Notes under the pieces: generated by a model
Told to the model about the DNA's origin: nothing
Seen by the model: the letters and a program-made list of their open reading frames with translations, nothing else
The model's database searches: none
Part shown: positions 368 to 64,000 of the stretch, piece by piece
How the letters are laid out: every line of letters begins with the position of its first letter
Numbering within the stretch: position 1 is the stretch's first letter
From: Malania oleifera
Lineage: Eukaryota; Streptophyta; Magnoliopsida; Santalales; Ximeniaceae
Assembly (NCBI RefSeq): GCF_029873635.1
Contig: NC_080422.1
Span: forward strand, 19,062,095-19,126,094
Direction of reading: 5' to 3'
DNA length: 64,000 bases
Position numbers and translations under genes: made by a program

Positions 368-541
368 GCACTCGTTGACGAGCCATGTCACCTTGTAAAC
401 GAGGCCACGAAGGAAGTTCATCTACGAATGTTTATTCCTCGTCGATGAAATTCAAAACTGAAAGTAGCCTCTCGGTATCTTCTTGTCGACGAGACACGTG
501 TACGCATCGATGATCCCAATAAGCCACTTCATCGACGAGGA
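368..541. repeat. Palindrome array, CTCGTCGACGAG type
   Basis: Several imperfect copies of a CG-centred palindrome, for example CTCGTTGACGAG, CTCGTCGATGA, CTTGTCGACGAG and CATCGACGAGG, are spread over about 170 bases. The array lies directly upstream (minus orientation) of the TATA box at 352-365. The same word recurs at 11881-12080 and 17804-17953. Confidence 0.75.
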
Positions 542-1405: not shown

Positions 1406-2640
1406 ATGTGTAGTCCCAAGAAGGGGGGGGGGTGTGAATTGGATTTAAAAAATTCTTTTTAGTTCTTTTCAAGAATCCTTAACCTCATTTAATTCTTTTC
1501 AATGAACTCTTTGACCTAATTTAATTCTTTCAATGAAATCTCGATTTCTTGTTGATTTATCAAATACACAATAAGTACTTAAAATAATATTCAATCCACA
1601 ACCATATACCAACAAAGTACTTAACTAATCAATCAACCAAACCAATCAATTTTCCAATCAACCACAATATTCAAACTAAGATATAAGATTCAACTTTTGT
1701 TTGTTTGCAGCCCTATATATATGAAAGTTTGATTCAAGTCTTGTGGTTAATGCAAGCCGTGTGATAATGAATTTGCTTTCTCAAAATGAAGTGCAATATA
1801 AAATCCAATACTCTTTCCAAAAGTTTAGATGTTAAATAAACTTTCAGTTTAAAGAGTCATTGGGTGTTTTACCAATCAACGTACTCCCTTACAGTTTCCG
1901 CAAAGTATGGCTCAACCAACGTACTCCCTTTCGGTTTCCGCAATCCCAAAAATAAATTAAGCTTAAATTTATTTAATATCTAATCCACGTAGTATACATG
2001 ATTAAACAATTTAAAACATCCACCCAATTCGTATATGCTGAAAGTAAAGAGAGTAAAGGAAAGAGAGTGACACCAGATTTTTACGAGGTTCGGCTTATCC
2101 GCAGCCTACGTCCTCACCTTTGGAAAACCACCAAAGGATTCCACTAGATCAGCTCCTTTTCGGGCAGAACAACACCGTTACACACTTCTTTAGTAGGCTA
2201 GAGCCTGCCTCTCCAAGCGATATCCCCTCACTTGGTCACTCCTTTAATTAGGCTAGAGCCCGCCTCTTTAAATGATACCCCACACTTAGCCAACGATCTG
2301 AACACCTCGAATCATCCAAGAATTACAAGAAATATGAAGTAAACAATGCGTACAAGAACATTCTCAAAATAGAGTAGATTAGTACAAATTCAGCACTGTG
2401 TACTTCAAGAATTCAAATATCAATATGAAATAGAATTGAAGCTCAAGTGTTTAGAGATCACCAAGAGTTCTTATATGATTGAGAAAACTTAGTATAAGAC
2501 CGTAGATTTGTGATTTAGCAACAATTCAGATGAATTCCCTTAGCAAGAACAAGAGCAATAGAGAATTTTAAGAGAGATTGAGAATTTTAATGCAAGTATG
2601 TTGTGTGATTGCCTTGGTTATTAATTTCTTAGGATTAAGG

Positions 2641-2654
2641 ATGTATTTATAGGC
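2641..2654 (-). promoter_or_regulatory. LTR TATA box
   Basis: Minus strand GCCTATAAATACAT, equivalent in place to the TATA boxes of the other SIRE-like LTRs. Confidence 0.55.
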
Positions 2655-2780
2655 TTTTTAGAATTAGTTTCCTTGTTCCCCAAGTTACTTGGAGTGTCCA
2701 CCAAGTTTTTATAACGTTCACATTTGAAAAACTAATTTTTAGAATTTTCCCGTTAAGGTTCAAAATTTAAAATCTTGTTG

Positions 2781-3051
2781 AGTCAGTCGGCTGGATAGGC
2801 GATTGGGTAGTGTATTTCACAGGGTCATTCGGTTGGACTGGCGGTTGAGGCCTTTCTGTTTGCCAGAAATAAATTCAATTAATTTTTCAGTCGGCTGGCT
2901 CGACTATGTTAAAAAATGTCAGTTGGCTGGACATTGTTAGTCGGCTGAGTAAGGTAAGATCATTTGGTGAGTCGGCTGGGCAGTATATTTAACCGTTGTA
3001 TTATTGTCAGTCAGGTGAGTAAACCCAGTGTAATCTTGTTAGTTAGCTGAC
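2781..3051. repeat. Palindrome array, CAGTCGGCTG type
   Basis: Around eight copies of a near-palindrome (CAGTCGGCTGG, TTCGGTTGGACTGG, GTCAGTTGGCTGG, GTTAGTCGGCTGAG and variants) separated by 20 to 50 bases of unrelated sequence. It sits about 130 bases upstream (minus orientation) of the LTR TATA box. Confidence 0.7.
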
Positions 3052-3550
3052 AAATTTATTTTTTTGGTTTTTTCATTTTTAGTTTTCAAAATTTGTTTTT
3101 CTCTCTTGCTTTGATTGTTCATAAAACATTTTCCGTGGTTTTAAAATAGGTCTCTAAGTCCACAAATATCCCCTAAAGAGCTTCAACATATTTCAAATGA
3201 TATTTAAAATATGAAGCACTTACATAAAGATTTCTAAGACTTTGAACATGCTTGGTGCTTGAGTCTTCATGCTTGTCTTTTCTTTGAGCTCTCTTACTTT
3301 TCTTTCTTTTGCCTCTCTTGCTTTTCTTCAAGCTTTGATATACTTTTAAGCTTTCTCTCATATTTTTCAAGCTTTAAAATATCATCTTGAAATCCATGCT
3401 TTAAGCTTCATATGATCAACCTTATTTAAAATATAAGCTTTTATTACATTCTCTTTCTTAAACCCTGAAATATCATTACTCAACCAAATATGTTATGTTC
3501 CACTTGTTTGTTAGCATCAAAACAGGATGTTAAGCCTTGTAAAGCCAACA

Positions 3551-5093: not shown

Positions 5094-6241
5094 TGAAAAG
5101 GAAGGTGTATTCCCAATAGGGAGGTGAATTGGGATTTTAAAATTTCTTTTTACCTTCTTTGATTAATTCTTTCTAAACTTATTTTAAGTTCAACAAAGTT
5201 GATTTACAATTACAAATTCAGTGGAAATTTTATTTGATTATAAACCATTATGAATGAATAAACCAAATTGAATATTTCTTTGAGCAAACTAAATCAATCC
5301 AACCAAGATATCCACAACACAATCCACAATAGAGAATGATTCTAGAAATGCTTTCAAAGTTTCAGTACTTGAGTAACTCAAAGTAGAGTTTATGTATGTA
5401 GTTGATAAAAGCCCTGTATTAGTGAACTTGATTTCTCAATATGAAGCAAAATGTAAAAGCCAATCACTCTTCCAAAACTCATATTTTAATTAAACTTTCA
5501 ATTAATGAGTCTTGGGTGTCAACAAATCAACGTACTCCCTTATGGTTTCCGCAATTAGTATTGATTAACTAACATACTCCATTTTGGGTTTTACAATCCC
5601 AAAATCAAATTAATTTGTAGTTTATTTATAATCCAATTCACGTAGTGTATATGAACAGAAAATTAAAATCCCACCACGCAGTTTATATATGCTAAAAATT
5701 AAATGAGAGTAGGGAAGAGAGTGAGACACGAGTTTTATGAGGTTTGACTATACCCGCCTACGTCCTCGCCTTAGGCAAACACACCTAAGGATTCCACTAA
5801 ACCACTCCTTTACGGGAAGGAGAAAGCTTACACACTCTTTTGTAGGCAGGAGTAGCCTTACAATCTCTCCTTCAATAGGCTAGAGTTCGCCTCTCCAAAC
5901 GATACCCCATGCTTGGTCCAACAACGATTCAAAGACCTGAACTGTCTACAAAATAAGAACAAATTTTGATGTACAAAGATACTCTCAATAAGAGCTTATT
6001 AGTACAACAATTAAACACTAAAATATACTTCAATTCAAAAGAACAATAGAAAGAATTTGAAACTTTTAGAAGTATATCACTATGAGCTTTCTTTCTAGAT
6101 TGAAAGAATTTAGAGTAGGCTCAGAATTGTGAGAGAGTTTCACTGCAAACTCAGTAAGGAACCTCAGAAAATTTGAGAGCAAGAGAGCTTGAATGCTGTA
6201 TTTGCTTGGTGTTTTGAATCATTAGCCTTGGGGGGGGGGGG

Positions 6242-6255
6242 GATATTTATAAATG
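6242..6255 (-). promoter_or_regulatory. LTR TATA box
   Basis: Minus strand CATTTATAAATATC, immediately upstream of a C-run (minus strand) unique to this LTR. Confidence 0.5.
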
Positions 6256-6380
6256 TTTAAACAAGATTGTTTCGTGTTCCCCAAGTGACTTGAAGTGTTT
6301 CCCAAGTTTTGATAACGTTTAGAATTCAAAAAATCAAAATTGGAAAGTTCTTGTTATGTTTAAAATTTGAAATCTCAAAG

Positions 6381-6541
6381 AGTTAATCGACTGGAAATAA
6401 AGAGTCAGTCGTTTGGATCCATTAAAACACAAAGAAGTTCAAAAGCATAAGGAGTTAGTCGACTGGGAAATCATGAGTCAATTGCCTAGGTCCTCTCGGG
6501 TTGTTTCAAAATCAATTCATTTATTTGTCAGTCGCCTGGAA
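6381..6541. repeat. Palindrome array, CAGTCGACTG type
   Basis: Five diverged copies: TTAATCGACTGG, TCAGTCGTTTGG, TTAGTCGACTGG, TCAATTGCCTAGG and TCAGTCGCCTGG. It is the sparsest array in the window. It lies about 130 bases upstream (minus orientation) of the TATA box at 6242-6255. Confidence 0.65.
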
Positions 6542-7030
6542 AGACCAAAATTCTGATTTTTCATTTTGTTTCCAAATTATTTTCATTCTTTTGCTTTCCC
6601 CAAAATAATTTAAGACTATTGAAAAGTATTTTCCGAGGTTTTTCAAAACATGGTCTCTAAGTCAATGAGTTTCCTAATGAGCTTCAAATCCAATCAAATC
6701 ATCATTTGAATGAAGTACTTACATAGAGACTCTTTTAAGACTTTAAACACATTCTAAGCTTGGAGTCTTCATGCTTGTCATTTGCTTAGCCCATCTTGTC
6801 TCTGAGCTTCAATTCTCTAAGCTTTCATCAAGTCCTCTTTGGTATTTATGCTCTCATGTTCTTAAGCTTTAATATTCTTTTTAATGTAGTCTTGCAATGA
6901 GCTTTGTATTTACATGAACTTGAGTTTGAAAACTTGATTCCTAAAGTATCATCACTTTCAACGAAACATATTATATGACCTTTGATTTGTTATCATCAAA
7001 ACAAGATTAGTAAGCCATGTTAGGCCAACA

Positions 7031-11880: not shown

Positions 11881-12080
11881 TTCGTCGACAAATTTAAAAG
11901 GTTCGTCAACGAGCCAAAGAAGGACATTCGTCGATGAGGTCATCAAGTTCTTTGATGAATCTATTGAAAATCTGAATTTTCCCTGCTCTCAATAATTCTT
12001 CATCGACGAGATACGTGTAGTCATCGACGAAACCCAGAAGAACGTTCGTTGACGAAGAGGTCGAATTCGTCGACGAGTCC
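11881..12080. repeat. Palindrome array, CTCGTCGACGAG type
   Basis: Eight or so copies (TTCGTCGACAA, TTCGTCAACGAG, TTCGTCGATGAG, CATCGACGAGA, CATCGACGAAA, TTCGTTGACGAA, TTCGTCGACGAG) spaced 15 to 45 bases apart, directly upstream (minus orientation) of the TATA box at 11863-11873. Confidence 0.8.
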
Positions 12081-17440: not shown

Positions 17441-17990
17441 CACCAAACTAGATATAGGATCAGATATTTCCATAAGAATTTTTTGTAATAATGGATAGAT
17501 ATAGGATGTACAGCGGAATAAATCCGCAACAAGCAAATCAAACTAAACCAGAAAATATGAAATAACAATCACAACAACAAGATGTATATAATTTGGCAAA
17601 GTCTACATCCACGGAAGCAATCGGCACAAAAATTTCACTAAGAAATTTGAGAATGCACAATACACTTTACAAAGATCTCTCTCATATCTCACAATACCCT
17701 CATATAGGAATAAATACACTTTCTTTCGGAGGTTTCCCTCCAATTACCCAACCACCGCAACGTTCAAATTCAAAATTTGAATTTCTTCTTGCCGCCTAGG
17801 CGCACTCGTCAACGAGAACAGGAGATTCGTCAGCAAGTCAAAGAGCCCACTCGTTGACGAGTCTATTCTCTCGTTCAACGAGTCTTTAAGTCTGAGATTT
17901 TTTTACTTTCGGTATCTACTCGTCGACGAGCACAGGGCACTCGTCGACGAGTCTTCTGCTACCAATACAAGAAAACATCTATCTCATGTT
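17441..17990 (-). mobile_element. LTR fragment, probably Copia
   Basis: Recognised from LTR-type features: a block TTTGGCAAAGTCTACATCCACGG (17593-17615) like the GGC...CTACGTCC block of the other LTRs here, and an array of CTCGTCGACGAG palindromes at its upstream side. Ends are not defined and no PBS or coding part adjoins, so lineage and borders are uncertain. Confidence 0.45.
17804..17953. repeat. Palindrome array, ACTCGTCGACGAGT type
   Basis: Six copies: ACTCGTCAACGAG, TTCGTCAGCAAG, ACTCGTTGACGAGT, CTCGTTCAACGAGT, ACTCGTCGACGAGC and ACTCGTCGACGAGT. Two are perfect over at least 12 bases. Spacing is 20 to 55 bases. Confidence 0.8.
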
Positions 17991-20883: not shown

Positions 20884-21394
20884 TGTTGAATTAACAAGGT
20901 CTTTCAATTGGTTTTGGTGATAACAAACAAAGGACGATTTAACTTGGAAATGTTGAGTTTTGTGTTTCAGGAAATATGGATCAAGTGTGGTTGAGTTTTG
21001 TGTTTCAGGAAATATGGATCAAGTGTGGTTCAAGCAAAGTTCAAGTATAGCTTAAGTATTGTTCAAAAGAAGATCAAGTATAAATCAAGTATGGGACAAC
21101 TATTCAATGATCCAAAGAGAATCTAATATATTTGAAGCTCAAGCAAATTTTTTCAAAGAACCTCAAGAGCAAAGCATGAGAAAGAACTCAAGTATGTCTT
21201 ATAAAGGCTTAGGAAACATATTTGTAAGTATTTCAAAAGCTAAAATATCATTTGAAATATGTTTTGAAGCTCTTTCAAAAGGTTATGACGTCTTAAAAAC
21301 CTATTTAAGATTTCTAAAATAAGTCTTGTAAAAATCATAAGAGAACAAATCAGTTTATTAGAGAAAAATATTTTATAAAATAGGATCTTGGTAG

Positions 21395-21679
21395 TTCAGA
21401 TGACTGAAGTGACAACTTTAGATGACAGACTTCATGTTCTGACATCTGAAGAATTACTTCAGACATCTGAAGATTAAGTGCAGACGTCTAAAGATTTTAT
21501 GGAACAAAATATAGCAGGCAGTAGTTGTTCAGATGACTGAACTCGACACTTCAAACATCTGAACTTGACACTTCAGACGTCTGAACCCTACTTCAGACAT
21601 CTGACCCGATGTGAAGTTCATTTTTTAAAGGGTTTTAGGAACTTCAGATGACTAAACTCGAATCTTCAGACATCTGAAT
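21395..21679. repeat. Palindrome array, TTCAGACRTCTGAA type
   Basis: About ten copies of half- or full palindromes (TTCAGATGACTGAA, TTCAGACATCTGAA, GCAGACGTCTAAA, TTCAGACGTCTGAA and variants), spaced mostly 15 to 40 bases, about 125 bases upstream of the TATA box. Confidence 0.8.
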
Positions 21680-21804
21680 ACTGTTCAATGGACAAATTTT
21701 TAAATTCTAATATTTTAAAATATAGCTGTTTTGAGCTCCAATTTTTCTAACAACTTGGGAAACTTTCTAAGGAAACTTTATCAACATGGAAACAAGTTTG
21801 AAAG

Positions 21805-21816
21805 CCTATAAATACA
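21805..21816 (+). promoter_or_regulatory. LTR TATA box
   Basis: CCTATAAATACA, in the same relative place as in the other SIRE-like LTRs. Confidence 0.55.
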
Positions 21817-23033
21817 TGGTTTTGCAAATCAAAATACATCCAAGAATTGAAAAATCTATTTTGAGAAGCTGAAAGCACTCTTGTTCTTCCAAAGCTCTCT
21901 TGCTCACGCATTGCAAATCTCTTTTGCTGAGATATTCTAAAGTGCTAATCCTTCCTTCTCTGAATTCCTACTGCTAATCCTCATCTAAGAAGGATATTGG
22001 TGAATTCTACACTTGAGCTTCATTCCATTTCATATTGATATTTTACATTGAAGTATATAGTGCTAAAATTGTACTAACTTGCTCTTTGAGAGAGTATACT
22101 TGTATGTAGATCTTATCTTGTGTTTCTTGTAGTTCTTTGACATTCCAAGGATTGTTTGGATCGTTGGCTAAGCAAGGGGATATTGCTTAGAAAGGCGGGC
22201 TCTAGCCTAAAGGAGTGACCAAACGAGGGGACATCGTTTGGAGAGGCGGGCTCAAGCCTAGTGAAGGAGTGTTTGAGCATGGGGTATTGCTTGTAATCAG
22301 GTTTTGTTCCACCCATCAATGGAACAGGTTTAGTGAATCCTTTGGTGGTTTGCCAAAAGTGAGGACGTAGGCTGGGTTTAAGCCGAACCTCGTAAAAATC
22401 CCCGTCTCACTCTCTCTTTTCCTATTATTTATTTTCAATGCATATTTAAATTGTGTGGATGGTTTAAATTTGAAAATCATATAAACTACGTATATTTGGA
22501 AATCAAACAAACTTAAGGTTTAATTTTGATTTGGGTTGCGGAAACCGAAAGGGAGTACGTTGGTTACACCATATCTTGCGGAAACCATACAAGAGTACGT
22601 TACTTGGTTAACATCCCAAAGATAAATTTACCAAGAGTTTATTTGAATTCTAAATATTTGGAAAGAGTGATTGGATTCATTTATACAAGGCTTTACATCA
22701 GCAAGCATAAATTCTCATTCACTACAGGGTTTGGTTCAAATTTGGCTAATATAAACAAACAACCATTTTGAGTTTTTATATTACATAAGTGTTGTGTATT
22801 GGCTTGTTTGTTTACTTTCTAATTATAGTTGATTGGTTTGGTTGAATGATTGGATGTTTGTATGGTTAAAGATTAAACAAAGAAACTAAGTTCTTGAGTG
22901 CTTAACAAATTAAACAAATAAGTCACGAATTGGTTAAAAGAAATAAAATAAGTTTAAGAATTCTAAAAGGAACTAAAACGAAAGTTTTAAAAGCCAATTC
23001 ACCCCCCCTCTTGGAAATATATTCCTAATTTCA

Positions 23034-24010: not shown

Positions 24011-24454
24011 TGTTGACTCTACGAGTCAAATCCTGTTTTGATATTGACAAATCATTTGGTATTTGATCTGTGTATTGAGTTTGTGAACAGGAGTTACACT
24101 AAGCATGCACGGAAAGATAACGAGTCATGGAAGCCTTTAAGTAAAGCTTACAAATCTTGGAAAGCACCATGGAACTCAAAGAGTACGAGAATCAAGATGC
24201 AAGCGGTAAAGTTCAAGAATATCTTGGGAATGGGTATTTAGAACTCATGTACTTACATTTTCATATGATTTAATTTTAGGCTCAACATAACTTAGGATGA
24301 TTGTTAGGATTTATGCATTTCATGTACACCATTAGGGAACTTACATGGACTTAGAAAGGTTTTTAAAATCATGGAAAACTTGTTTTATAAAAGACCCAAG
24401 CAAAGAAGTAAAGAAGAATTTTAAATTGGAAATGAATATTTGAGAAAAAGGGGA

Positions 24455-24647
24455 CTTCAGTAGCCTGAACTCAACCTCAGGCGCCTGAAGAATTTCTTCG
24501 GTTGCCTGAAGATTAAGTTCGGTAGCCTGAAGAATTAAATGGGAAAACAGAACCTGGCAGAGGTACTTCGGTCACCTGACCCTGGAATCTCAGGCACCTG
24601 AAGTTGTAACTTCAGGAGCCTGAACCCCACTTCGGTTGCCTGAAGTT
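24455..24647. repeat. Palindrome array, TCAGGCGCCTGA type
   Basis: Nine copies alternating TTCGGT(T/A)GCCTGAA and TCAGGCGCCTGAA forms (also TTCAGTAGCCTGAA, TTCGGTCACCTGA, TTCAGGAGCCTGAA), packed about 20 bases apart. It sits about 90 bases upstream of the TATA box. Confidence 0.8.
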
Positions 24648-24736
24648 GCGGGAAAGTCTAAAAATCAAATTTTTATTAAAAAAACTCGCGAGCTATTTCA
24701 TTGATCCAACGGCTGAGATCAATCCTAAGGGTAATA

Positions 24737-24748
24737 AACTATATATTC
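24737..24748 (+). promoter_or_regulatory. LTR TATA box
   Basis: AAACTATATATTC region, the equivalent of the TATA box in sibling LTRs. Confidence 0.45.
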
Positions 24749-26003
24749 TGAATATCTAAACCCTAGAGAAAAATTTAGACAGACAAGAAAGAGAAGAACA
24801 CACCTTGTTGCAAGAACGTTGAAAATCTACTCCTAGTGCTATACGATTGCCTACTCTTCAATCTCTAATCTTCAAGCTTGAGCAAATCAACTCAGATTCT
24901 CAAAGGGAACTTGTTTACTCATCTGTACTTCAATCTAGTATTGAGGTTTGATCTTTCAAGTTATTATTCTTAAGAACATCTCATCTCATCTTATCTAGTG
25001 CTCTTGACTATCATTAGAGAAGTTTTGATCTTGAGTGTGCATATTCATATAAAAATTGAGTTTTGAAAAGATCATTACTTGAGAAAACTTATTTAACTTG
25101 GTTGATTGATTTTTGATTCAAGTGGGTGTTTTCTAAAGGATTTATATTTTAGATATATTAAAGCTTGATTAAATATCCTTGGTACTTATAACTATATATT
25201 TAATTGAGGGATATTTTCTGAAAATTAATATACTCAATTTGTCATTGAATACTTGAAATAAAACTTTGTGATTTTGATTGAGTGTGTATTCAAGACAAAG
25301 TTTTTTGTTAACTAGATCACATCAAACATACTTGTGCATTTTTGCAAAGTGAACCAAGAACCCTAGTTGACTCCAAAACATTTTGAATAGGTCTATACTT
25401 GGGAGTTTTGGTTAAATAGGGATTTGTGTGTTGAAGCATATCATACATAAAATGATTGTATTGTTTTCATACATTCATGAGTTTCCAGTTATATCATATG
25501 TTAATGTATTAGGATTTTGAATTGTACTCACCAGCTTTTGTTAGAAGCATTGTTTTGAGTGTTGATTTTTAGATTCTATTGTATACACGGTTCGGTGTGT
25601 GAACCGGTGTGTGAGAGGAGAGAGCTGTATCTCTTGTAAGTAGCGGAGTAGGAGGAAGTTGTGCCTCTTATAAGCAGCGGATTGTAAAGGAAGCTCCGTC
25701 CCACCTTAAGGAGCAGGGTTTTAGTGAATCCTTAAGTAACCGATCAAGGCAAGGACATAGGCCAAGTCGGCTGAACCTCGTAAAATTGTGTTTGTCTTCT
25801 CTCTTCCCTTTACTCTTTTTTTTAGCACTGCATTTAAATTATTTGTATTGCATGCATAAGTTGGTTAGTCTTGCACAAAAGTAATTGAGTAACATGAATT
25901 TATTGGTAAATATATAAGAAGATTTTAAGCCGTGAATTAGTGCCAAAGAAATTTTTAAATACCCAATTCACCCCCCCCTCTTGGGATTACACCTGATTCA
26001 ACA

Positions 26004-30050: not shown

Positions 30051-30512
30051 TGTTGACCTTATAAGTCATGCCCAGTTTTGATAATGACAAATACTTGTTG
30101 TATTTGATGGCTTTCAAGTGTATGTGCAGATTCATTTTAGTAGATCAAGTAATGGCACATGAAAGCAAAACATAAAGACCCTGAAGATTAGTTTCATGTT
30201 GTAATTCATTTTATGTATTATAGGTCTGTAATAGTAATTAGGATATAAGGTTTGTAATAATCTTTACATGTCATGCATGTAGGTTTTGTAAGCTCAACAA
30301 GACCGTAGTTTGACCATAGGGTACCGAATGTCATTAGGGTACCCTTTAGTCGACCGACACCAGATTTTTGGGACTATCTCAAAACAGCCCTTGAAAAGAC
30401 CTTAGTGAGACTTTAGGTCCCCACACGTATGCACTAATATATCCCCACAATATCTTGTCAAACAGAGGATCAATTTGAAATGGACTGAAGAAGATAAGCA
30501 TAAAATGAGAGG

Positions 30513-30885
30513 GCTCGGGCGATCGCACCCCAGGGGTTCATTTTACCTCGGGCGCCCGAACTGTTGGGAAGTCAACGGTTTGACTTGGGTTTGGGCTGCC
30601 GAACCAAGAAAGACTCTATTTCCCTTAGGCGACCGAACCCCTAGATGTGACCTTTTCACCAACTCGAGCTACCGAGTAGTTTAGTTAAAAATAGACCCCG
30701 GGCGACCGAACACGTGGATTCGGGCCACCGAACCTAGGACCGGGCACTCGAACCTACGAACAAAATGCTACTAACTTTTGTTCGGGCTACCAAACCTACA
30801 CTCAGGCTGCCGATCTTTTTTTAAGGATTTTTAAAAAATGAGTTTGGTTGGGCGACCGAACCTCGGTTCAGCCACCCGAACCTTG
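30513..30885. repeat. Palindrome array, TCGGGCGCCCGAA type
   Basis: About twelve copies: CTCGGGCGATCG, CTCGGGCGCCCGAAC, TTGGGCTGCCGAACC, TTAGGCGACCGAACC, CGGGCGACCGAAC, CGGGCCACCGAACC, CGGGCACTCGAACC, CGGGCTACCAAACC, CAGGCTGCCGA, TGGGCGACCGAACC, CAGCCACCCGAACC. The flanks GAACC are as in the GGTCGACCGAACC arrays but the centre differs. Confidence 0.85.
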
Positions 30886-31005
30886 TTGGGTTAAAATTAT
30901 TTTAACTGGGGTAAACACGGGTTAATTTGGGTTAATATTTCCTAAGAATTTTAGACTTTTCTAAGAATACTCAATAGGTCATAAACAGTTATGTTTTTGC
31001 TTTGG

Positions 31006-31017
31006 TCTATAAATATG
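31006..31017 (+). promoter_or_regulatory. LTR TATA box
   Basis: TCTATAAATATG followed by AGTTCATTTG, aligned with TCTATATATACCCCCTCATTTG of the LTR at 35621. Confidence 0.6.
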
Positions 31018-31555
31018 AGTTCATTTGTGAGGATTAAGCAAAGATTAAGAAAAATCATTAGCAAAAAATTCTCTCAAACTCAAAATCCCATTTTTCCTAT
31101 AATACTTCCAAACACTCTCATACCTTCATTCCGTTGATTAATTTTAGCTTTGTGAGATTCCTGCTTGGATTATTGCTTAGTATTATTGCTTATACTCCCA
31201 TTATTTTTTCTTGATTGATTGTTATTGTTTTTGGGGAGTCAAGCAAGAGTTTTCCCACAGATTTTTAATTGATAAATTTAGTGTTAGGAAAAACTCATTA
31301 GCTTAAGGATCTTTGCATTGTCATTGCAAAGATTCCTATAGTTCGATTTTGTTGTGCAAATTATTTTTAACAAGCTATTATTTTTTCAAACAACTCTTGA
31401 GTTTACTTCCTTGAAGAAAATATTTTGAGTTGTTTTGAATATTAGCAACATCTTTGAAACCCTGATTTATTATTGAGATTTGATATATACTGTTTCAAAG
31501 AAATAGCTTGATTAGAACACTCTTGATCATATTAGTGATAATACCTCGATGATAT

Positions 31556-35620: not shown

Positions 35621-35987
35621 TGTTGACCCTATAGGTCGCACCCGATTTTGATAATGACAAATACTTGTTGTATTTGATGGTTGTCTAAGGATATGTGCAA
35701 GTACACAATTGGCAAAACAAAATGATGACACAAGAAGTAGAAGTTGAAGGCCCTGAAGACTTTATTTGTATTGTATTTAAATTCATTATTTATTATGGAT
35801 TTGTAATAGTAAATAGGATCCAGTTTGTAATAATCAAATGCATCACATGCATGATATGATAGGTAAGCTCAAATGAAAAAGACCAATAATGACCCTAGGA
35901 AACTCATTCATGCATAAACATAATGTGTATATAATAATAGGGTGGTTGCATAAGGAAATAGAACCGAAATGCATTAAAAATGCATGT

Positions 35988-36386
35988 TCAGTCAACCGTA
36001 CCTTCACAATGAAAATATGTTGGTCGATCGAACCAGTCACTGGGTCAACAATTTGACCATTGCATGGTCGACTGAACCCTGCCTAGTTCAAATCACCCGG
36101 TCGACCGAACTCTCTCCCGGTTAATAGTTTGACCACACGATCGACCGCCCCTATTGCTTAAGCCAACCACCTGGTCGACTGAGTTCCCACATACGTTTGG
36201 CCAACCGCCCGGTCGACCGAACCACTTAATTCAAATCCACATGGTCGACCGAACTGCACGAAAATGAAAAATCACCTTTGGGAACCCTAGTCTGGTCGAC
36301 TGAACTTCCAATTCAAATTTTACCCGGTCGACCGAACTTCGTCACTGGGTTAACCGAACCTCACGTCCGGTCAATCGGTGCTCTTG
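35988..36386. repeat. Palindrome array, GGTCGACCGAACC type
   Basis: About twelve copies, several exact over GGTCGACCGAAC, others one or two changes away (GGTCGACTGAAC, GGTCGATCGAACC, GGTTAACCGAACC). It is followed by the conserved TTGGGTTGCC...TTTTTACCGCAATTAA block and then the TATA box, about 120 bases on. Confidence 0.9.
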
Positions 36387-36505
36387 GGTTGCCATATTAT
36401 TTTTACCGCAATTAAATTTTTTAAACGGGGTTAACTAGGTTAAAATGGTTTAAAATAAAATTAATAATACCCTATATGTCCTAGACGGTTATAATTATGG
36501 GGTAG

Positions 36506-36519
36506 TCTATATATACCCC
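36506..36519 (+). promoter_or_regulatory. LTR TATA box
   Basis: TCTATATATACCCC followed by CCTCATTTG; the same block occurs at 53915 and 63495. Confidence 0.65.
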
Positions 36520-37748
36520 CTCATTTGAAAAGATTAGCACCCAATTAGAAATCTTAATTAGGAAAAATCCTCTAAAATTCAAAAATCTCCTATACTTATT
36601 TTTGAGCCTCCTACACTCATTCTTACTAGATTTTATTGCTTAAATTTCTTTGCAAGTGTGATTAAGTGTTCTTATCATTAGGCTTAAGCTCTCTCTTGTT
36701 CTTGTTGATTGAGATTATTTTATTAGAGGGCTAAGCTTGAAGTTTTCCTAGGAGACTTTGTTAATAAATCTTCCCTAGGAATACTTCATTGAGCCTTTGA
36801 GTTTTGCATTGTCTTTGCAATACTCAAGGAGTTCACATTGGATTTTGATTGCTAAAATATTTTACAAATCATTTTCAAAATATCTCTTGTTCTTATATTT
36901 GAGAAATATATATTTTGAGATATTTTCTTGAGTGCTAAAAGATCTTTGTTGCTGTACCTTTTGATTGAGATTATCATTTTAATACAAAGATCAAATAAAT
37001 ATTTTACAAACCATTGTTGAATATCTCTTGTGGTTTATTTTGGTAAAAACTTCTGTTGAGATATTTGAAGTATAGTTGTGATCTTTGCTAGTGCATTGTA
37101 ATTGAGAATATTATCTTGCTACAAAGATCCTATCGTTTACACTCTCACGTACTGATTGCATTATTGGCATTAATTTTGAGAGTAGATACTAAGGCTACAC
37201 TAAGCTTATCATATCTTATCATTTGGTAGCGTGTTGATTAGATTTGTACATATCAGCTTGTGTAAGAAGCATTTCCTTGTACGTAAAATTTTCCACATTT
37301 GTTGTATTCCAGGCACGGGCCTAAAGAGGGAGACTAACCCTATTGAATAGTCCCAGACTGGGTTAGACCTGATTAAGAAAGTTAGGTGAGCCATCCTAGT
37401 AAGACGTGTTGGTTGAGGTCAGCCCCTTGAATTGACCTAATTGTAATCGGTGCCACTCCACCCGTGAAGTGAGCCATTAGTGGAATCCTTGGGCTTACGA
37501 GCTAAAGGCGTGGACATAGGCACAGTTGGCCGAACTCCGATAACATATCTAGTGCTGATTTTATCTTTTACAATTTACTTTCTGCACCTGTATGTTTATG
37601 TTTATCGTTTAAATATTTGATTGGGATTGTGAATACATAGAAAGACCCTAGTTTTGTGAAATACCGCTTGCTAGATTAGTTGAACCTAGGAGATTAATTT
37701 TTATATACCCAATTCACCCCCCCTCTTAGGAATACACCAAGGCTAACA

Positions 37749-39073: not shown

Positions 39074-40310
39074 TGTTAGTTTTGGTGCATTCCCAAGAGG
39101 GGGGTAGAATTGGGTATTTAAAAGTTATCGCTCAGGTCAATCGGTTTAACAACTGTATTACTCAACCTAGGGTCTGTCTATGCAATTATAAACCCAATCA
39201 TTCACTATAGCAAAATATAAACATTCATGTGTTGGAATTTAAAATGTGGAAATTAAAAGCACGCATAAGAAATGTTATCGGGGTTCAGCCAACTGTGCCT
39301 ACGTCCCCCCCTCTAGCTTGCAAGCCCGAGGATTCCACTAAAGCTCACGTAATGGGTGGAGCAGCACCGATGACAACCAGATCAATTCAAAGGGCTGACC
39401 TCAACCAACACGACTTACCAGGATGGCGCACCTAGCTTTCCTAACCGAGTCTAAGCTAGTCCAGGACTATTCAACAAGGCTAGTCTCTCTTTTCAGGCAC
39501 GTGCGTGGAATACAACAAATGTGAAAATTTTGCGTACAAGGAAATACTTCTTACACGAGTAGATATGTACCACTATGCACAATATCACAGATCAATGCAC
39601 ACTACCAAATGATAAGATATGATGAGCTCAATATAGTCTTAGTATCTACTCTCAATGATTTATGCAAATATTGCAATCAGTACGTGAGAGTGTAAAAGAT
39701 ATGATCTTTGTGTCAAATAATGATTTCAATCACAATGCACGAACAAAGATCCTAGGCACACTTTAAATATCTCAACAAATATTTTTCTTAGAATATAAAC
39801 CTCAAGAGATATTCTGATTTAGTTTGTAAAAATGATTTGATCTTTGTGTTCAAAATGATAAAGTTGATCAAAGAATATTGCTACAAAGATCTTTTAGCAC
39901 ATGGAAATATATCTCAACAAATATTTCTTAAGGTAAACCACACGAGGTATTTGAAGATGATTTAAAAAGTATTTTCAGCAATCAAAATACAATGTGAACT
40001 CCTTGAGATATTGCAATGAAAATGCAGTACTCAAAAGCTCAATGAAGTTTTTCCTACGGAAGACTTATTAATAAAATATCCTAGGAAAAACTTAATGCTT
40101 TGCTCTCCAAGAAAATAATCTCAATTAATCCAGCAGGGAGAGCAAAAGTCTATTGATAATAACACTCAAGCACACTTACAAATGGATTTAAGCAATAAAA
40201 TTTGGTAAGAATGAGTGTAGGATGCTTAAAAATGAGTATAGGAGATTTTTGAATTTCAGAGAATTTTTCTAATCAAGATTGCTAATTTGATCCTAATCTT
40301 TTCAAATGAG

Positions 40311-40320
40311 GGGGTATATT
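40311..40320 (-). promoter_or_regulatory. LTR TATA-like element (decayed)
   Basis: Minus strand AATATACCCC followed by CCTCATTTG, the decayed counterpart of TATATATACCCCCTCATTTG in other LTRs. Confidence 0.4.
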
Positions 40321-40449
40321 CAGACTACCCCATAATTATAACCATCCAGGACACAGAGGGTATTATTAGTATTATTTTACACCATTTTAACCCAATTAAC
40401 CCCATTTAAAATATTTAACTGTGGTAAAAATAATATGGCAACCCAAGAG

Positions 40450-40991
40450 CATCGATCGACTGGACTTGAGGTTTGGTTGACCTAGTGACGAAGTTTAGTC
40501 GACCGGGTAAAATTTGATCTAAAAGTTCGGTCGACCAGACTAGGGTTCCCAAAAGCGATTTGTCATTTTCGCGCGGTTTGGTCGACTGTGTGGATTTGAA
40601 CTAAGTGGTTCAGTTGACGGGGCAGTTAGCCAAACACACGTGGGAACTCGGTTGACTAGGTGGTTTGCTTAAGCAATAGGTGCGGTCGACCATATGGTCA
40701 AACGTTTGACCTGGAGAGAGTTTGGTTGAATGAGTGACTTGAATTGGGTAGGGTTCGGTCGACCGTGCTATGGTCAATCTGTTGACCTGGTGACTGGTTC
40801 GGTCGACCAAAAAATTTTCATTGTGAAGGTACGGTCGACCGAAAATGCATTTTTAATGCATTTCGATTCTATTTCCTTATGCAATCACCCTAACCGTATA
40901 AACACATTATGTTTATGCATGTATGAGTGTCCTAGGGTCATTCTAGGTCTTTTTGAGGACACCAAAAAAATCTTGTGTCGGTCGACCGAAA
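40450..40991. repeat. Palindrome array, GGTCGACCGAACC type
   Basis: About sixteen copies over 540 bases, read here as TTCGGTCGACC on the plus strand, many decayed (GGTTGACCTAG, TTGGTCGACTGTG, TCAGTTGACGGGG). The longest array in the window. It sits about 130 bases upstream (minus) of the TATA-like sequence AATATACCCC at 40311-40320. Confidence 0.85.
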
Positions 40992-41580
40992 GGTGCCCTA
41001 CGATCATTTGGTTTCCCTATGGTCATTTGAGCTTATCTACCCTATTATGCAGGAAAAGCATTGATTATTAGAAACCATTTTTCCTAATTACTATTACAGA
41101 CCCAAATTAAATAATAATGAATGTCGCGACGTCCCGGGAGCGCATGTGCCCCGGGCGGCGAAATTAAAAATCATTTTTATTTTTAAGGAAAAACATGGAT
41201 GTCGGAGTCGCCACTAACCTTTGGTGTGGTTAGAACACGTGATAACTACCCCGTTAGGGGTAAAATAGGTCTACATTACCAGAGTTAGGCTCGGGAGTTC
41301 GGTTACGCGAGGGAAAGGTACGAGCACCCCCTACGCACCCGTTCTTACGAACGGTACCTAATTAATTTGAAATTATCCCTAAGTTAATCTAATAAGTCTT
41401 TAAATTACTCATTTTTATGAGTTTATAAATACATAGGGAAAATGAATAAATAAATAAATATATACATATATTCCCTCAGAGCTTAGGGTACGTGATGCCC
41501 AAAGGCTCATACCCCCGCAATAAAATCATAGGGATTATAAAAATAAAAAATATTTAATATATAATAAAATATATATAATA

Positions 41581-51689: not shown

Positions 51690-52407
51690 GGTAGATCCAT
51701 CTAATGGATGAGCAAGAATCCCCTGTTGATGTTAAAATGATAGTGGGCATGATTGGGAAGAGTCTCCTAATCTCACTGCTAGTAGGTCTGATATTATGTT
51801 GAGTGGTGCATGTGTGCTGATTTTCAGGCTGACCCTAAGGAATCCCATCTGAAAGCTGTTAAACGAATTCTTAGGTATCTAGTTGGAACTATAGAGTTAG
51901 GACTCTGGTACCCTAAGCATACTACCTTTGAGATTGTTAGTTACCACTGATGCTGACTTTGCCGGTAGTAAGGTTGATAGAAAAAGCACTAGCGGCACTT
52001 GTCATTACTTAGGACAATCTCTTGTTTCTTGGTTTTCTAAGAAACAAAACTCAGTTGCCTTATCCACCGCCGAAGCTGAATATATTGCAGCTGGAAGTTG
52101 TGCCCAAACTCTTTATATGAAACAACAACTTATGGATTTTGGATTGCACTATGAAACAATACCGATTAAATGTGATAATACTAGTGCAATCAACATCTCC
52201 AAAAATCCTATCTCACATTCAAGAACTAAACACATTGAGATTAGACATCATTTTCTTCGTGATCATGTGCAAAAAGGAGATGTGGCTCTTGAGTTTGTAT
52301 GCACAGATGAACAGTGGGCTGATATATTCACTAAGCCACTACCTGAGGATAGATTCATACAAATTAGACGTGAGTTAGGCTTAATGCATAGTAGAGAAGC
52401 TTCCTAA
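51690..52407 (+). pseudogene. SIRE-like Copia RT end and RNase H (element E)
   Basis: It starts in the RT C-terminus (LTASRSDIM at about 51775; ESHLKAVKRILRYLVGT at about 51847) with frameshifts near 51830 and 51940. It is then open at 51928-52407: TTDADFAGSKVDRKSTSGTC, LVSWFSKKQNSVALSTAEAE, CDNTSAINISKNPISHSRTK and VCTDEQWADIFTKPLPEDRF, the full Copia RNase H signature, ending near GLMHSREAS. The 5-prime junction with the Gypsy element is within about 51650-51700. Confidence 0.92.
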
Positions 52408-52977: not shown

Positions 52978-53254
52978 TGTTGACTTATAGGTCACACCCT
53001 GGTTTTGATAATGACAAAGACAATTGTATTTAATAAATATCTAATTCATGTGCAGGTTCATATTAGCATATCTTCAGTCGCACGTGAAAAGCTTAAAGAC
53101 TTGAAGACAATTTCATACTCTTAATTGTAATAGTTTTTAAATGAAATTTGTCTATAATAGTAATTAGGGTTTTCGGTTTGTAATAAGCTCACACACATCA
53201 CATGCATGAATTAATTTGTAAGCTCAAACCGAACCATAGAAAGACCTTAGGGTG

Positions 53255-53800
53255 AACCATCGGTAGACTGACACTGGACTTTTTCGGTGTTTCCAAATTG
53301 GACCCCAAGTGACCTTAGGACACGCACATATGCACATATGTTTATTAGGCACTTGAAATAGACTTATTTGGGTCAATTCGGGACCAAAATGCACACTTGG
53401 TGCACTTTCGATCGATCGGCCAACTCAGTTCAATCTGGCCTGGTCGACCGAAACCGGTCCGAGTCAATTGTTTGACCCAGGCCCGGTCGACCGAGCCCTT
53501 ATAGGTCATTTGACATCGGTCGACCGAACCTCCTGGGAGTCAACTTTTTGACCTCCCGGTCGACCGACCAGATTTGTACTCCAGCGACCTGGTTGACCGA
53601 AGGGTCTTGGAAGAATTCCCAGCGGTCTGGTCGACCGAGCCATGCAGTTCAAAAAGGGCCCAGTCGACCGAACCTCGGAGTTTTTGAAAATCGCCCTTAC
53701 CCGGTCGACCGACCACTCAGTTCAAAATCCCCCTGGTTGACCGAGCTACTTGAGTCTTGGTCGACCGAACCATTTCTAGTCGACCGGACCTCTCGGGTTG
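53255..53800. repeat. Palindrome array, GGTCGACCGA type
   Basis: Exact GTCGAC occurs nine times between 53443 and 53784 (53443, 53486, 53519, 53559, 53630, 53663, 53704, 53760, 53779), plus GTTGAC variants at about 53592 and 53736. Counting those, most steps between successive copies are 32 to 43 bases. A six-base word is expected about once in 4 kb by chance. Confidence 0.92.
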
Positions 53801-53914
53801 CTCCCATTTTTTACCGCAGTTAATAATTTTTTAACGGGGTTAAATTATCTTAAGTGTCATTAATCTTTTCCAAAAATCCCTAATAAGTCCCCAACGGTCA
53901 AAATTTTTAGTATG

Positions 53915-53928
53915 TCTATATATACTCC
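53915..53928 (+). promoter_or_regulatory. LTR TATA box
   Basis: TCTATATATACTCC followed by TTCATTTGG, about 130 bases after the last palindrome. Confidence 0.65.
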
Positions 53929-55103
53929 TTCATTTGGTGATTTAAGCACGGATTAGCAAAAAGATTAACAAAATTTCTCTCAAGCCAAAATACTCATTTT
54001 TGCCTCTCATTACTCACACTTCTTTTGAAACCTACTCAAGCTTACACTCTTCATCCATCTAAATCATTTGTAAGTGTATTGAGTACTTTTACTTAGAGGT
54101 TAGCTCTCCATATTGTTGCATATTTGAATCGATTTTTGAGAGCATAACCTAAGTTTTCTTAGGAGGCTTTGCCAATAAGCCTGCCCTAAGAAAGACTTGT
54201 TGTGACATCCCAAGTATTGCATTCTCGTTGCAATATCTTAGGAAGTTCATTTTTGTTTGGAGATTGCAAAAATACTTTCAAACATATCCGAATATCTTGT
54301 GGTGTTCATATTGATATATTTGTGAAAAGATATTCGTGTGTGTAATATATCAATCTTTGTGGTATTATTTATACAAGTATATATATATCATTTGCCGAAA
54401 ACAAAGATTATCTATATTGCAATCCAAGCATATACGCATTCTATTGATTGATAATATTGAGGCTTGTTTGATATTCTATGTGAACACTCTTGACTGAATA
54501 TTTTGAAGTACACAGATTATTATTGACACTCTCACGTACTTGCTACACAGATAGAAAACATTGTTGAGAGTTGACATATTTAGACCACACAGAGCTTACA
54601 TTATTAAATCATCTGTGGTGTTTGTGTTTGTGCGCACTTGTGGTACAAATCTGCTTTACGTGAAAGCACTCTTGTATTGTGCCTTTGATTGTATATCTGA
54701 GAGATTTCAGGTGTGGCCTGAGGGGGCGGTAATCCAGCCCGGTAAGGATTGGTGTAAAGGTTGAGGTCAGCCCTGTGTTAATTTGACCTGGTTTGTATAG
54801 GTGCCACTCCACCCGTTTAAGTGAGCAAGGTATTGTGATAATCCTTGTGCTGGTTAGCCAAGGCGGGGACGTAGGCAGTTGGCCGAACCTCGATAACATA
54901 TCTGCGTGTCATCCTCTCTTTTACTGCTTTCTAGTGCTTGTATGGTTGTTTAAACTGCTTTATTTTATTTTTGGTATATTTACATTATTTGCACTAGATT
55001 GACCCTAGGCTTGTGAACATACTGCTGCTAAGTTGAATACCTAGGAGATAAAATTTAAAAATACCAATTCACCCCCCCTCTTGGGATCACGGTAAAGCTA
55101 ACA

Positions 55104-57074
55104 GGTGTTATTTCATGTACAGTTATATAAGATGATTTTCATGTATAGAAACTTAGTATGTTATACCATGTTATGATAAATTATGTTTTATCCAGATATG
55201 ATACAAATAGTTTTACCAAATATGATTTTTGAACTATTACATGTATAACACGAAAATACGTATGTTACTACACACTGATGTTAGTTTATTTCCCTTACTA
55301 AGAGGTATCTCACCCCAGCATTATAAACATTTTGAGAAATCTAGATAGAGGGGCAGATAAAGCTCCGTAGCAGTAGAGACTGATTGGGTTACCCTATCAG
55401 AAAGGGTAAGTGGTAGAGTTAGGGTTAGTGATGTAGGACGGGAATGGTCGACCTATGACCTACGATTCAACCCTCACACAAGCACATACACTTAAACACT
55501 TTAATTTAAGAATTTAATTATCTAAACATAAACACAATAAATCATGTTTTATTTCACATGTTCAAGGATTTTCAAAAGGTGTATGACTTGTCTAGCAATT
55601 AAGTCCCAATTGGTTCTTTCACAAAGGAATCAAGTTATATGCTGAAAATTTGTTATTTCAAATATTCAAGAATAAAAGTTCTATGTTAGGAAACTAATAT
55701 TCATACAATTGATTTTAACTAGCAAGTACCAATATTGCAATCTATGGATCAAATGGGCTATTCAAAGATGTGATTTTAATCTACTAGCAAGGGTCCACAA
55801 GATATAGCAAAAGATTCAAGCACAAGTACTGAAGTTACCAAGGAATTGGTTTGGATGACTTGACGTTGTTCCACACGTAGTTAGGTCACACCGTAGGTCC
55901 TTCGTACAAGCTTTGAATCACAAGATGAACATAGCAATGAAGTGTAGATGATGATCGTCATGTGGGTGTATGAAGATGCTGGTCGTGTGGTGTTGATGGG
56001 AGCCGTGAGAGTATTAGATGGAGGAAGGGTTGATGGAGTCGTTAGATAGTTTAGTGGTCTCTCACCACTTGATCTCTGGAGAGAACGCCGTAGCCTCACA
56101 CTACTCACTCACAAGGAGATGAACAAGCTTACAAGCTCAAGCAAAGAGATGCTTCTTCAAAATTCAACTTCAACTTCATGTCTCTTGTTCTTACAATAAG
56201 AAGGCTATTTATAGGCATAGCCTGGGAGACAAAGCTTTAAACACTCAACAACTCTCAACAACTTTCAACAAAAATTCTCAATAACTTTCAACAACAACTC
56301 TCAACAACTTTCAACAACTATTAACCTAACACAATTAATACTTACTAAAAAACAAGGAACTCCAACTCATAAGCACACAAGTCAAGCTTAGTTGTCTTGC
56401 ATTATTACAATTCAAATTTGAAATTTAAACACATTCTAAAAGGAAGGCCAAAATCGTGTGGGACCCACATGGGTTTTGAGTTGGACTTTGCTTCAATACT
56501 TCACTTGGGTCTTCAAGCACCTAATAATCTTGAAATAACATATCCACGAAAAATATAAATTAACACAATAGCAAAGTCTTCACATAAAAAAAGTATTCCA
56601 TCAAATAAGTAGAAGATCTTCAATTAATCCCATGTGTTCCTGCAAAATATATATAAACAATAGTGGACATCTGGAGGTCGTCCACGTGTCACCAAGTCAA
56701 CAAAGGAGTGGAGATCGGGAGGTCGTCCATGTGTCATCATATCAGTAAAAGAGATACATAAGGTATGTTGATCCCCATCAGTTAGATGGATTTTTGGGTT
56801 GAGACCCTAGGAGCACTTTTTAGTCTTTTATGGATGATTGTATGTGTATGTATATTGCAGATTTAATAGAACTATGGTATTGATTCAGGTATTTATGGCA
56901 TGTATATGATTTTATGTTTTTCGCTGCTTAGGTATCAGGGTTGTATTTCAGGTATATCCTTGGTACCCATGGATCCAGGTTTATCATGTTTTATTAGCTT
57001 AATAGGATATCAGGATTATTATATTAAATGTTATTATAAAAAAAAAATTATGGTAAAATAGACAGGTCGTTATA
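55104..57074 (+). mobile_element. Tekay-like Gypsy LTR fragment, interrupted
   Basis: Contains CCCTTACTAAGAGGTATCTCACCCC (55293-55317), a motif also present (minus strand) in the solo LTR at 10189-12172, and ends before a PBS at 57078. It is split by the solo LTR at 55429-56780. The 5-prime end is cut by the LTR ending at 55103. Assignment to the Tekay/Del type is inferred from gag and LTR style. Confidence 0.65.
55429..56780 (-). mobile_element. Solo LTR with GTTAG target duplication
   Basis: 1352 bases, TGATGTAGGACGGG ... GATCCCCATCA, flanked by GTTAG at 55424-55428 and 56781-56785. The ends form a short inverted repeat (TGATG/CATCA). A TATA-like GCCTATAAATAGCC on the minus strand (56205-56218) suggests minus orientation. 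It includes a run of CAACTxTCAACAACTTTCAA units (about 56237-56330). Its family is not recognised. Confidence 0.85.
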
Positions 57075-57077
57075 GTT

Positions 57078-57090
57078 TGGTATTAGAGCC
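57078..57090 (+). other. Primer-binding site, copy 1
   Basis: TGGTATTAGAGCC, just after the LTR end; one change from copy 2. Confidence 0.8.
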
Positions 57091-57353
57091 TAGGTTGCTA
57101 GGTTCTATCAACTCTAGAGTGTAGCAGAAATAATACCAAAGTATAGGAAAAGGATTTGAGATTTTACTCTACATTTTGGAGGCAAGACTTTCGTGGTGGT
57201 TTCTGTGTCTTTCTTGGAGTGACGATTTCAGGAAAGTCATAGTAAACTATTGTCGAGTTGTGTTTCTAAAGTGAAGGAATGAATCTTGAATTAAGAAAAG
57301 GATGTCAAGATAGGGGCTTTTGGTCAGATGCGTAAATTATAAGAATAGGGTCC

Positions 57354-62492: not shown

Positions 62493-62764
62493 TGTTGACC
62501 CAATGGGTCATATCCTGTTTTGATTATGACAAATACTCTAGTATTTAATGGTTTGATGACTTTGTGTGCAGGACAAATCGAACGTATCATATGGTGCACG
62601 CACATGGATTTGTAGAAGACAAAGACTCAAAATGTGTATTCATTGTAATTTATATTTATCATATTGAGTTTGTAATAGTAAATAGAAAATGGTATGTCAT
62701 AATTAATGTCTTACCTGCATGGTAGGATCGATAAGCTCATGACCATAGATGGTCCTTATGGAAG

Positions 62765-63345
62765 GTCGACCGACACCGAATTTTTTCAGTGTTCTCAAAC
62801 TAAAAAAGACCTAGAAATGACCTCAAGACACTCACTCATGCATATATATGAATGGTCATTTGAATAGGGAATTTGTATGCTTAAAAAGGACTGAAATGCT
62901 TTAAATAGGTACTTTCAGTTGACTGTATTTCACAGTACATATACTCTCTATCGACTAAACCCGGACCAGGTCAATAGTTTGACCACAGTCCGGTCAACCG
63001 AACTCATATAGTTCATTTACACTCGGTCGACCGAACGCCCTTTTAGTCAACCCTTTAACCTCCTAGTTGACCGAGCCCAAAATGAATGCCAACGCTCTGG
63101 TCGACTGAGGGTCGTCGAGAGATACCCCAACAGTCTGGTCGACCGAACCATCTAGTTCATTTCTTCCCGGTCGACCAAACCACGATGTTTGGAAAAATTG
63201 CCCTTCCCGGTCGACCGAGACCATAGTTCATTTCCCCCTGGTTGACCGAACCTCAGTAATTTTGCCCTCGACACATGTTTCCGGTCGACTGAGTCCCTAG
63301 TTCATTTTTATCCTAGTCGACCGAACCATATGAACTTGGGTCGAC
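62765..63345. repeat. Palindrome array, GGTCGACCGAACC type
   Basis: Exact GTCGAC at 62765, 63026, 63100, 63138, 63170, 63210, 63284, 63316 and 63340, plus GTTGAC and GTCAAC variants between. From 63026 on the steps are about 25 to 75 bases. Confidence 0.92.
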
Positions 63346-63494
63346 CAAAAATGTTTCTTGTCAACTGAAGCTCTCGGGTTGGACTTAATTTTTACTGTGG
63401 CTAATATTTTTAAATGGGGTTAACTTGGTTAAAATATATTGAAACTTTCCTAATAATTCCATATGTGTCCTTAACGGTTATATTTTAGGGGTTG

Positions 63495-63509
63495 TCTATA
63501 TATACCTCC
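63495..63509 (+). promoter_or_regulatory. LTR TATA box
   Basis: TCTATATATACCTCC followed by TCATTTGG, 150 bases after the last palindrome. Confidence 0.65.
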
Positions 63510-64000
63510 TCATTTGGAATAATTAACATTAGATTAGCAAATATAATGAGCCAATATCCTCTTAATCTCAAAAAGCCTATATTTCATATTCAAGCTTTAA
63601 ACTCCCACTCTTACTCATTCATATTGCAAATACCTCTTTGTAAGAGTATTCTTGTGCTTATCTCACCATGCTTAAACTCTCTCTTGATTGTTCTATTTGA
63701 GATTTATATTTCATAGAGAGTAAGCTGCAAGTTCTCGTAGGGGGCTACGTAAATAAGCCTTCCGTAGGAAAACTTCTTCGGGCTTCTAAGTTCTGCATTC
63801 TCATTACAATACTCAAGAGTTCATATTGTGTTTTGGTTGCAAAAATATTATACATCATTTTCAAAAATATCTCTTGTGCGTATCTTTGAGAAATCTATTT
63901 TGAGATATTTTCTTAAGTTCTAAAAGATCTTTGTTGCTACACCTTTTGATTGAGATTATTTTTTTATTACAAAGATCAAATAAATATTTTGCAAACCATT

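Follow-up and report, generated by a model that had tools for sequence, protein, structure and literature searches.

Palindromic box arrays in Sirevirus LTRs of Malania oleifera and a parallel array in a Ty3/gypsy-type family

Short palindromes recur inside the long terminal repeats (LTRs) of a 64,000-nt stretch of the 1.49-Gb Malania oleifera genome (C6:19062095-19126094; hereafter the window), which raises the questions of whether they form genuine arrays, why their words differ between LTRs of similar framework, and whether such a system has been described before. In a preliminary description of the window, nine LTRs were each credited with an array. Seven of these arrays were clear, whereas that of the LTR at 1407 was weak and the LTR at 5094 had no shared word (Table 1); the loose box frame defined below matched five times in 1407-3300 (1.8 in shuffles) and six times in 5094-7000 (2.05 in shuffles).

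The window LTRs, three of which (1407, 5094 and 39074) have minus-strand orientation, showed the marks of Sireviruses, namely a TGTTG start, a polypurine tract, a polyC signal and a primer-binding site, with no single LTR showing all of them. The polypurine tract adjoined the LTRs at 35621 and 52978, the polyC signal was found near the end of six LTRs (20884, 24011, 35621, 52978, 39074 and 1407), and a primer-binding site followed three 5' LTRs (24011, 39074 and 5094). The LTRs at 30051 and 62493 were assigned to Sireviruses from start sequence and array alone, and for the LTR at 39074 no LTR start was found and the far boundary is approximate. Copia-type gag/pol sequence lay beside the LTRs (gag_pre-integrs, Pol_BBD, zf-CCHC or weak RVT_2 matches in Pfam, in pieces 23439-24041, 26540-28425 and 608-1120), and an ORF piece upstream of the LTR at 52978 (51901-52407) had no Pfam match at 0.01. 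As a separate observation, a direct repeat of about 800 bp (59078-59882 and 61694-62492, 84.6% alike) has its second copy ending exactly at the start of the 62493 LTR.

Table 1. Positions of LTRs, box arrays and associated signals in the window
Feature	Position	Strand	Remarks
YTCGTCGACGAR array, 4 boxes	372..538	undetermined	LTR start not found
Sirevirus LTR	1407..3550	-	weak array (CCAGCCGACTG-like) ~2784-3052
Sirevirus 5' LTR	5094..7030	-	without detectable shared box word
Gypsy-type LTR array, YTCGTCGACGAR, 7 boxes	11882..12076	-	LTR start-like sequence at 12172
YTCGTCGACGAR array, 4 boxes	17806..17950	undetermined	LTR start not found
Sirevirus LTR, 3' end approximate	20884..23031	+	AA-class array (TCAGAYRTCTGA) ~21396-21678; TATA ~21806
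Sirevirus 5' LTR	24011..26003	+	AG/GT unlike-half array ~24457-24644
Sirevirus LTR start, 3' part not delimited	30051..31300	+	GG/GT unlike-half array ~30515-30880
Sirevirus 3' LTR	35621..37748	+	GT-class array ~35988-36359; TATA 36507
Sirevirus 5' LTR	39074..41122	-	primer-binding site 39060-39071 (-); GT-class array ~40451-40989
Sirevirus 3' LTR, 2126 bp	52978..55103	+	TGTTG...CTAACA ends, polypurine tract directly 5', polyC signal near end
52978 LTR array, GT-class (TCGGTCGACCGA-like), 10-12 boxes	53437..53793	+	
TATA box CTATATATA, 3' of 52978 LTR array	53916..53924	+	
Sirevirus LTR, cut by window end	62493..64000	+	GT-class array ~62762-63349; TATA 63496

The palindromes were far denser than in shuffled sequence. 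In the window, GGTCGACC was found 24 times (shuffle mean 0.19, shuffle maximum 2). Genome-wide exact matches were compared with those of the same word reversed, other palindromes such as TCGGCCGGCCGA being outside this comparison: TCGGTCGACCGA occurred 17,197 times vs 47 for the reversed word, TCAGACGTCTGA 3,656 vs 15, TCAGGCGCCTGA 2,507 vs 0, and TCGGGCGCCCGA 1,106 vs 2. In a survey of 639 overlapping 800-bp windows, taken from this window and 20 evenly spaced 10-kb genome stretches, a palindrome with four or more G/C letters occurred at least four times in 59/639 windows vs 0/639 shuffles, one shuffle per window giving a maximum of three copies. The 40 survey windows with at least five copies were sorted by eye into 22 of the TTCGTCGACGAA type (one of them with the word variant TTCATCGATGAA), 13 of the Sirevirus type and five belonging to two satellite-like repeats. 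The words listed in the preliminary description did not hold as array words: TCGGGCGCCCGA (at 30548, in the 30051 LTR), TCAGGCGCCTGA (at 24477, in the 24011 LTR) and TCAGACGTCTGA had one perfect copy each in the window and CAGTCGACTG none.

Palindromic box arrays in the Sirevirus LTRs are real. Seven window LTRs contained 8-12 boxes each (up to three mismatches), grouped in the upper LTR half; the 52978 LTR, for example, had 10 copies at 53437-53771 with steps of 24-43 bp, and most steps in the 20884 array were 20-22 bp. A TATA box lay about 94-148 bp past the last box in six of the seven, isolated frame matches beyond the TATA box not being counted as last boxes, and the seventh, at 39074, had no TATA match. 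Strict helical phasing was considered and rejected by eye, because steps of 24-25 and 45-46 bp (gypsy arrays, described below) and 38-41 bp (Sirevirus arrays) did not fit whole turns.

Such arrays have been described. RM boxes (Bousios et al. 2010, PMC2829016) are, in the text of that paper available to us, palindromic boxes present in at least eight copies in the upper LTR half of 13 Sireviruses, with a CGG-CCG core in all but Tnd-1 (one exception in 13), clusters with CpG islands, a TATA box after the cluster and a word that varies by element; ENV-bearing elements have extra copies upstream of ENV. Its Table 3 gives different words for the 13 elements, and two of them, CGGTCGACCG (Vitis) and GTCGGACGTCCGAC (Usier), resemble words in the Malania oleifera arrays. 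The seven clear window arrays share the palindromic box, the copy number of at least eight, the upper-half position and, in six of them, the TATA box past the cluster, and judged by these sequence features they are RM boxes as the available text defines them. A described system of this kind thus exists, contrary to what had been assumed at first. The Malania oleifera arrays differ from the RM boxes of that text in three respects: where that text has a single consensus for each element, this one genome contains a number of half-site classes; two of these classes tend towards boxes whose unlike halves stand in a set order; and the core is CAG-CTG, not CGG-CCG, in the AA class and in a large part of the AG/GT class. 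In maize Sireviruses, a palindrome-rich cis-region of the LTR, likewise resembling the arrays here, is said to evolve rapidly (Bousios et al. 2016, Genome Res, as presented in PMC5311732 and PMC10760457), for which small-RNA data are also given. No binding factor for the Sirevirus boxes was named in the accessible parts of the literature searched.

The variable part of the Sirevirus boxes was the half-site TTCRGNC, the whole box being TTCRGNC-GNCYGAA with up to three CpGs. A loose frame, TTCRGNNNNCYGAA with up to two misses, yielded 304 boxes from 34 LTR segments of 1-2.3 kb, including chance frame matches at 0.55-2.95 per shuffled segment. Half-site types agreed at 0.412 within LTRs vs 0.189 between LTRs, a contrast somewhat inflated because 24 of the 34 segments had been fetched around an exact word. 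The earlier claim that copies agree within an LTR held in this sense, but a single word per LTR did not, since the arrays of the 30051 and 24011 LTRs consisted largely of unlike-half boxes such as TTCGGGC-NACCGAA and TTCGGTN-GCCTGAA. An overall like-half preference was also rejected: 131/304 boxes had like halves, vs 126.8 expected when halves were shuffled within each LTR and 59.8 when they were shuffled over all.

The classes behaved differently in this respect. With 32 LTRs and 293 boxes, class names given after the boxes had been seen and most loci fetched around an exact word, like halves were in excess in the GT class (48/82 vs 38.4 expected, p = 0.001), and the counts were 12/54 vs 13.4 in GG/GT, 17/49 vs 19.8 in AG/GT (with 0/49 GT/GT boxes) and 53/108 vs 53.5 in AA. 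The orientation of unlike halves departed from random in AG/GT (p < 0.0005) and, L041 excepted, in GG/GT (p = 0.004); it was borderline in AA (p = 0.06) and unbiased in GT. CG had been reported at every centre; it was found in only 46/82 GT, 23/54 GG/GT, 17/49 AG/GT and 29/108 AA boxes. The CGG-CCG core was present in GT and most GG/GT boxes, AA boxes had mostly CAG-CTG, and AG/GT boxes were mixed. Both features of the first reading, pure words and a CG at each centre, are idealised.

We then related box class to the LTR framework by building a tree from the initial 330 bp of 22 of the 35 sequences, leaving out one that was too short and 12 fetched loci in which no LTR start could be recognised. 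Class changed seven times on this tree, vs 11.3 times when classes were shuffled, and none of 200 shuffles was as low, which supports the view that LTR framework predicts box class overall. The proposed clustering of words by subfamily held at this level and for two classes, AG/GT forming one clade and GT being clustered (1/500 as low), but GG/GT (108/500) and AA (500/500) were not clustered singly. The best hints of a whole-array switch came from L036 (AA), sister to the AG/GT clade (support 99/98), and from L038 (GT), sister to L041 (GG/GT; support 95/92); for L036, the comparison with its sister framework points to an apparent switch of half-site class. In L035 the match to the LTR start was weak.

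A second family carried arrays of similar appearance. The word TTCGTCGACGAA had 37,861 exact matches in the genome vs 67 for its reverse, and 159 boxes from 23 arrays (up to three mismatches) gave the consensus YTCGTCGACGAR, of the form YTCGTC-GACGAR. The four inner non-CpG bases were 98-100% constant, and the remaining variation, at the six CpG positions, was almost entirely C-to-T or G-to-A. Steps were mostly 20-21 and 24-25 bp, and the TATA start lay 7-10 bp past the last box in 7/15 LTRs and 27-28 bp past it in 2/15, being unmatched in 6/15. Outside the window, arrays of this type were among the fetched loci L005-L027, and at three of these the coding domains assign them, as far as Pfam matches tell, to a Ty3/gypsy chromovirus-like family and not to Sireviruses: L022 has an LTR from 4708 and a primer-binding site at 6756, followed by RVP_2 (2.7e-26) and RVT_1 (4.1e-28); L005 has SH3_Tf2-1 (5.6e-18) and Chromo (0.0049, below the Pfam cut-off); and L015 has SH3_Tf2-1 (2.4e-23), the array lying downstream in the latter two. 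We guess the lineage to be Tekay/Del. The claim of Sirevirus specificity in PMC2829016 does not extend to this family, because the comparison given in the available text was of Ty1/copia elements. Our literature search, covering texts available in part, found no description of gypsy-LTR arrays of this kind, which does not establish their absence from print.

How the arrays are maintained was approached through the sequence between and around the boxes. Flanks more than 8 bp from a box agreed within an LTR at 0.28-0.32, near the chance level of 0.26-0.28, and those within 8 bp at 0.27-0.37 (11, 6 and 16 arrays), the boxes having been chosen by likeness to the word, so that their own mutual identity is partly by construction. 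Between elements, conservation was limited to the boxes: box divergence was lower than spacer divergence in 89/90 ordered pairs of 10 GT-class LTRs and in 72/72 ordered pairs of nine gypsy LTRs (43/45 and 36/36 in an earlier form of the test), boxes and spacers being those of the first sequence of each pair; ordered pairs are non-independent, and the aligner can match a box to the one next to it and so bring box divergence down. Box divergence reached only 0.165-0.215 where spacers stood at 0.40-0.52. In the GT class, where alignment was easy, the means were 0.067 vs 0.112 in six pairs with spacers less than 0.15 apart and 0.122 vs 0.175 in eight pairs with spacers 0.15-0.25 apart. CpG changes exceeded other changes per position (0.12 vs 0.073, 0.095 vs 0.061 and 0.231 vs 0.093).

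Within elements the control was thin. In three LTR pairs pooled, no protection of boxes was detected (boxes 26/264 = 0.098, rest 182/2428 = 0.075, p = 0.18), and the pairs disagreed: 0.018 vs 0.044 in L046/L047, 0.089 vs 0.059 in L048/L049, and 0.198 vs 0.112 in L023, where another box definition gave 36/140 = 0.257 for boxes vs 0.137 for spacers. The L023 LTRs, flanked by the same 5 bp, are the only pair confirmed by a target-site duplication; L046/L047 and L048/L049 were accepted as pairs because they are 94-96% identical and lie about 10.5-10.8 kb apart, and two of the four candidates fetched, L050/L051 and L052/L053, were rejected as LTR pairs. A loss of box protection after insertion was thus partly shown by three pairs. 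The L023 Sirevirus copy itself (5010-8944) has a full 3' LTR and a truncated 5' LTR with about 740 bp between them and the 5-bp duplication flanking. On C1, exact TCAGGCGCCTGA sites near 10121503, 10126942 and 10132509 are about 5.4-5.6 kb apart, vs 10.5 kb in L046/L047, and possibly belong to shorter elements.

Local duplication has left traces in the arrays. Flank identity was above chance for gypsy boxes two steps apart (0.354, with 20/76 pairs at 0.5 or more) and for neighbouring AA boxes (0.36, 7/33 pairs at 0.5 or more), and units of 73-76 bp recur in the 52978 LTR; these shared flanks suggest that arrays grow by unit duplication, after which the spacers drift. That the arrays are neutral tandem repeats, similar through recent duplication or gene conversion, appears highly improbable even so, because most flanks are near chance while the boxes are alike, and the boxes are conserved between elements; simple tandem repeats were rejected on the same grounds. 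The earlier proposal of a recognition-site array, as opposed to neutral repeats, was in part borne out by these results. The arrays look selectively maintained, and selection on the boxes during the active phase of an element is the likeliest reading.

We consider it probable, on this evidence, that the array is a U3 module bound by a host activator dimer and kept by selection while its lineage is active. Under this model, the array, lying in U3 before the TATA box, would be a cis-regulatory module, and each box, being two inverted half-sites placed head to head, would have the shape expected for a DNA-binding dimer site. A putative host transcription activator, rather than an element-encoded factor, would bind the boxes and drive element transcription. 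Arrays would expand by duplicating one- or two-box units, with spacers drifting afterwards; boxes would be kept by selection during lineage activity and decay after insertion, chiefly at CpGs that are presumably methylated. The different words may then reflect diverged LTR lineages, each with its own mixture of half-sites.

Two other functions have to be weighed against this model. The palindromes might act as RNA hairpins or small-RNA templates in U3 transcripts and thereby feed silencing, as proposed for maize Sireviruses, in which small RNAs are in excess over palindrome-rich LTR regions according to the accessible text of PMC5311732 and PMC10760457. Array RNA folded better than shuffles (z = -7.0 for 53430-53800, -5.9 for 21390-21690 and -4.2 for gypsy L016, vs only -1.7 for a neighbouring part of the 52978 LTR), but this is no independent evidence, because any palindrome array folds well. 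Unlike halves in one orientation, as favoured in the AG/GT and GG/GT classes, would weaken self-pairing, and a pure silencing template would be expected to be lost from active lineages, so that we regard this explanation as unlikely.

Still less probable, in our judgement, is an array read by a host or element factor that adds or removes DNA methylation in the manner of VANC at the motif arrays of VANDAL elements, with the classes as diverged specificities. VANDAL elements have arrays of short motifs in noncoding sequence, whose types differ by subgroup, as in VANDAL21, and whose copies change together (PMC5735166 and PMC10398659, as far as their accessible text goes), which resembles the concerted change suggested in the preliminary description and makes them, with RM boxes, a second described precedent; the CpGs of the Sirevirus boxes and the faster change at CpGs would also suit this reading. 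However, VANDAL is another kind of element that encodes its factor, its motif YAGTATTAY is not palindromic, and it is not an LTR feature. A search of 16 ORF pieces (five from gypsy-type loci) with Pfam found no domain of an element-encoded factor, and the position before the TATA box suits a promoter module equally.

The arrays are real and mostly explained, and what departs from the known pattern is that a single genome has such a diversity of classes and that a gypsy family has a parallel array. Repeated activator sites are also present in the U3 of plant copia elements as Tnt1-type boxes, which have other words and belong to another lineage. Tnt1 box I is named in the available text of PMC2829016. 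A natural comparison is offered by related LTR frameworks that differ in half-site class, together with the invariant box of the gypsy family in tens of thousands of copies, and both the box binder and the cause of word change become directly testable in Malania oleifera. More speculatively, one host dimeric-factor family reading inverted TTCG-type half-sites might have been co-opted separately by two unrelated retrotransposon superfamilies of this genome, with the Sirevirus classes GT, GG, AG and AA as successive specificity shifts with loss of outer CpGs and thus a record of an activation-methylation contest, a scenario that we hold to be doubtful.

Other features of the window were recorded alongside the arrays. 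A 45-bp minisatellite at 44668-45727, its 23.5 copies about 90% identical, shows a higher-order periodicity of roughly 181 bp; tandem 113-bp units at 13792-14315 show a self-match also in inverted orientation; and a head-to-tail pair of about 810 bp (56853-57662 and 57665-58469) is 95.4% alike. On the minus strand, a 586-aa ORF at 14803-16563 matches DUF247 (E 2e-106).
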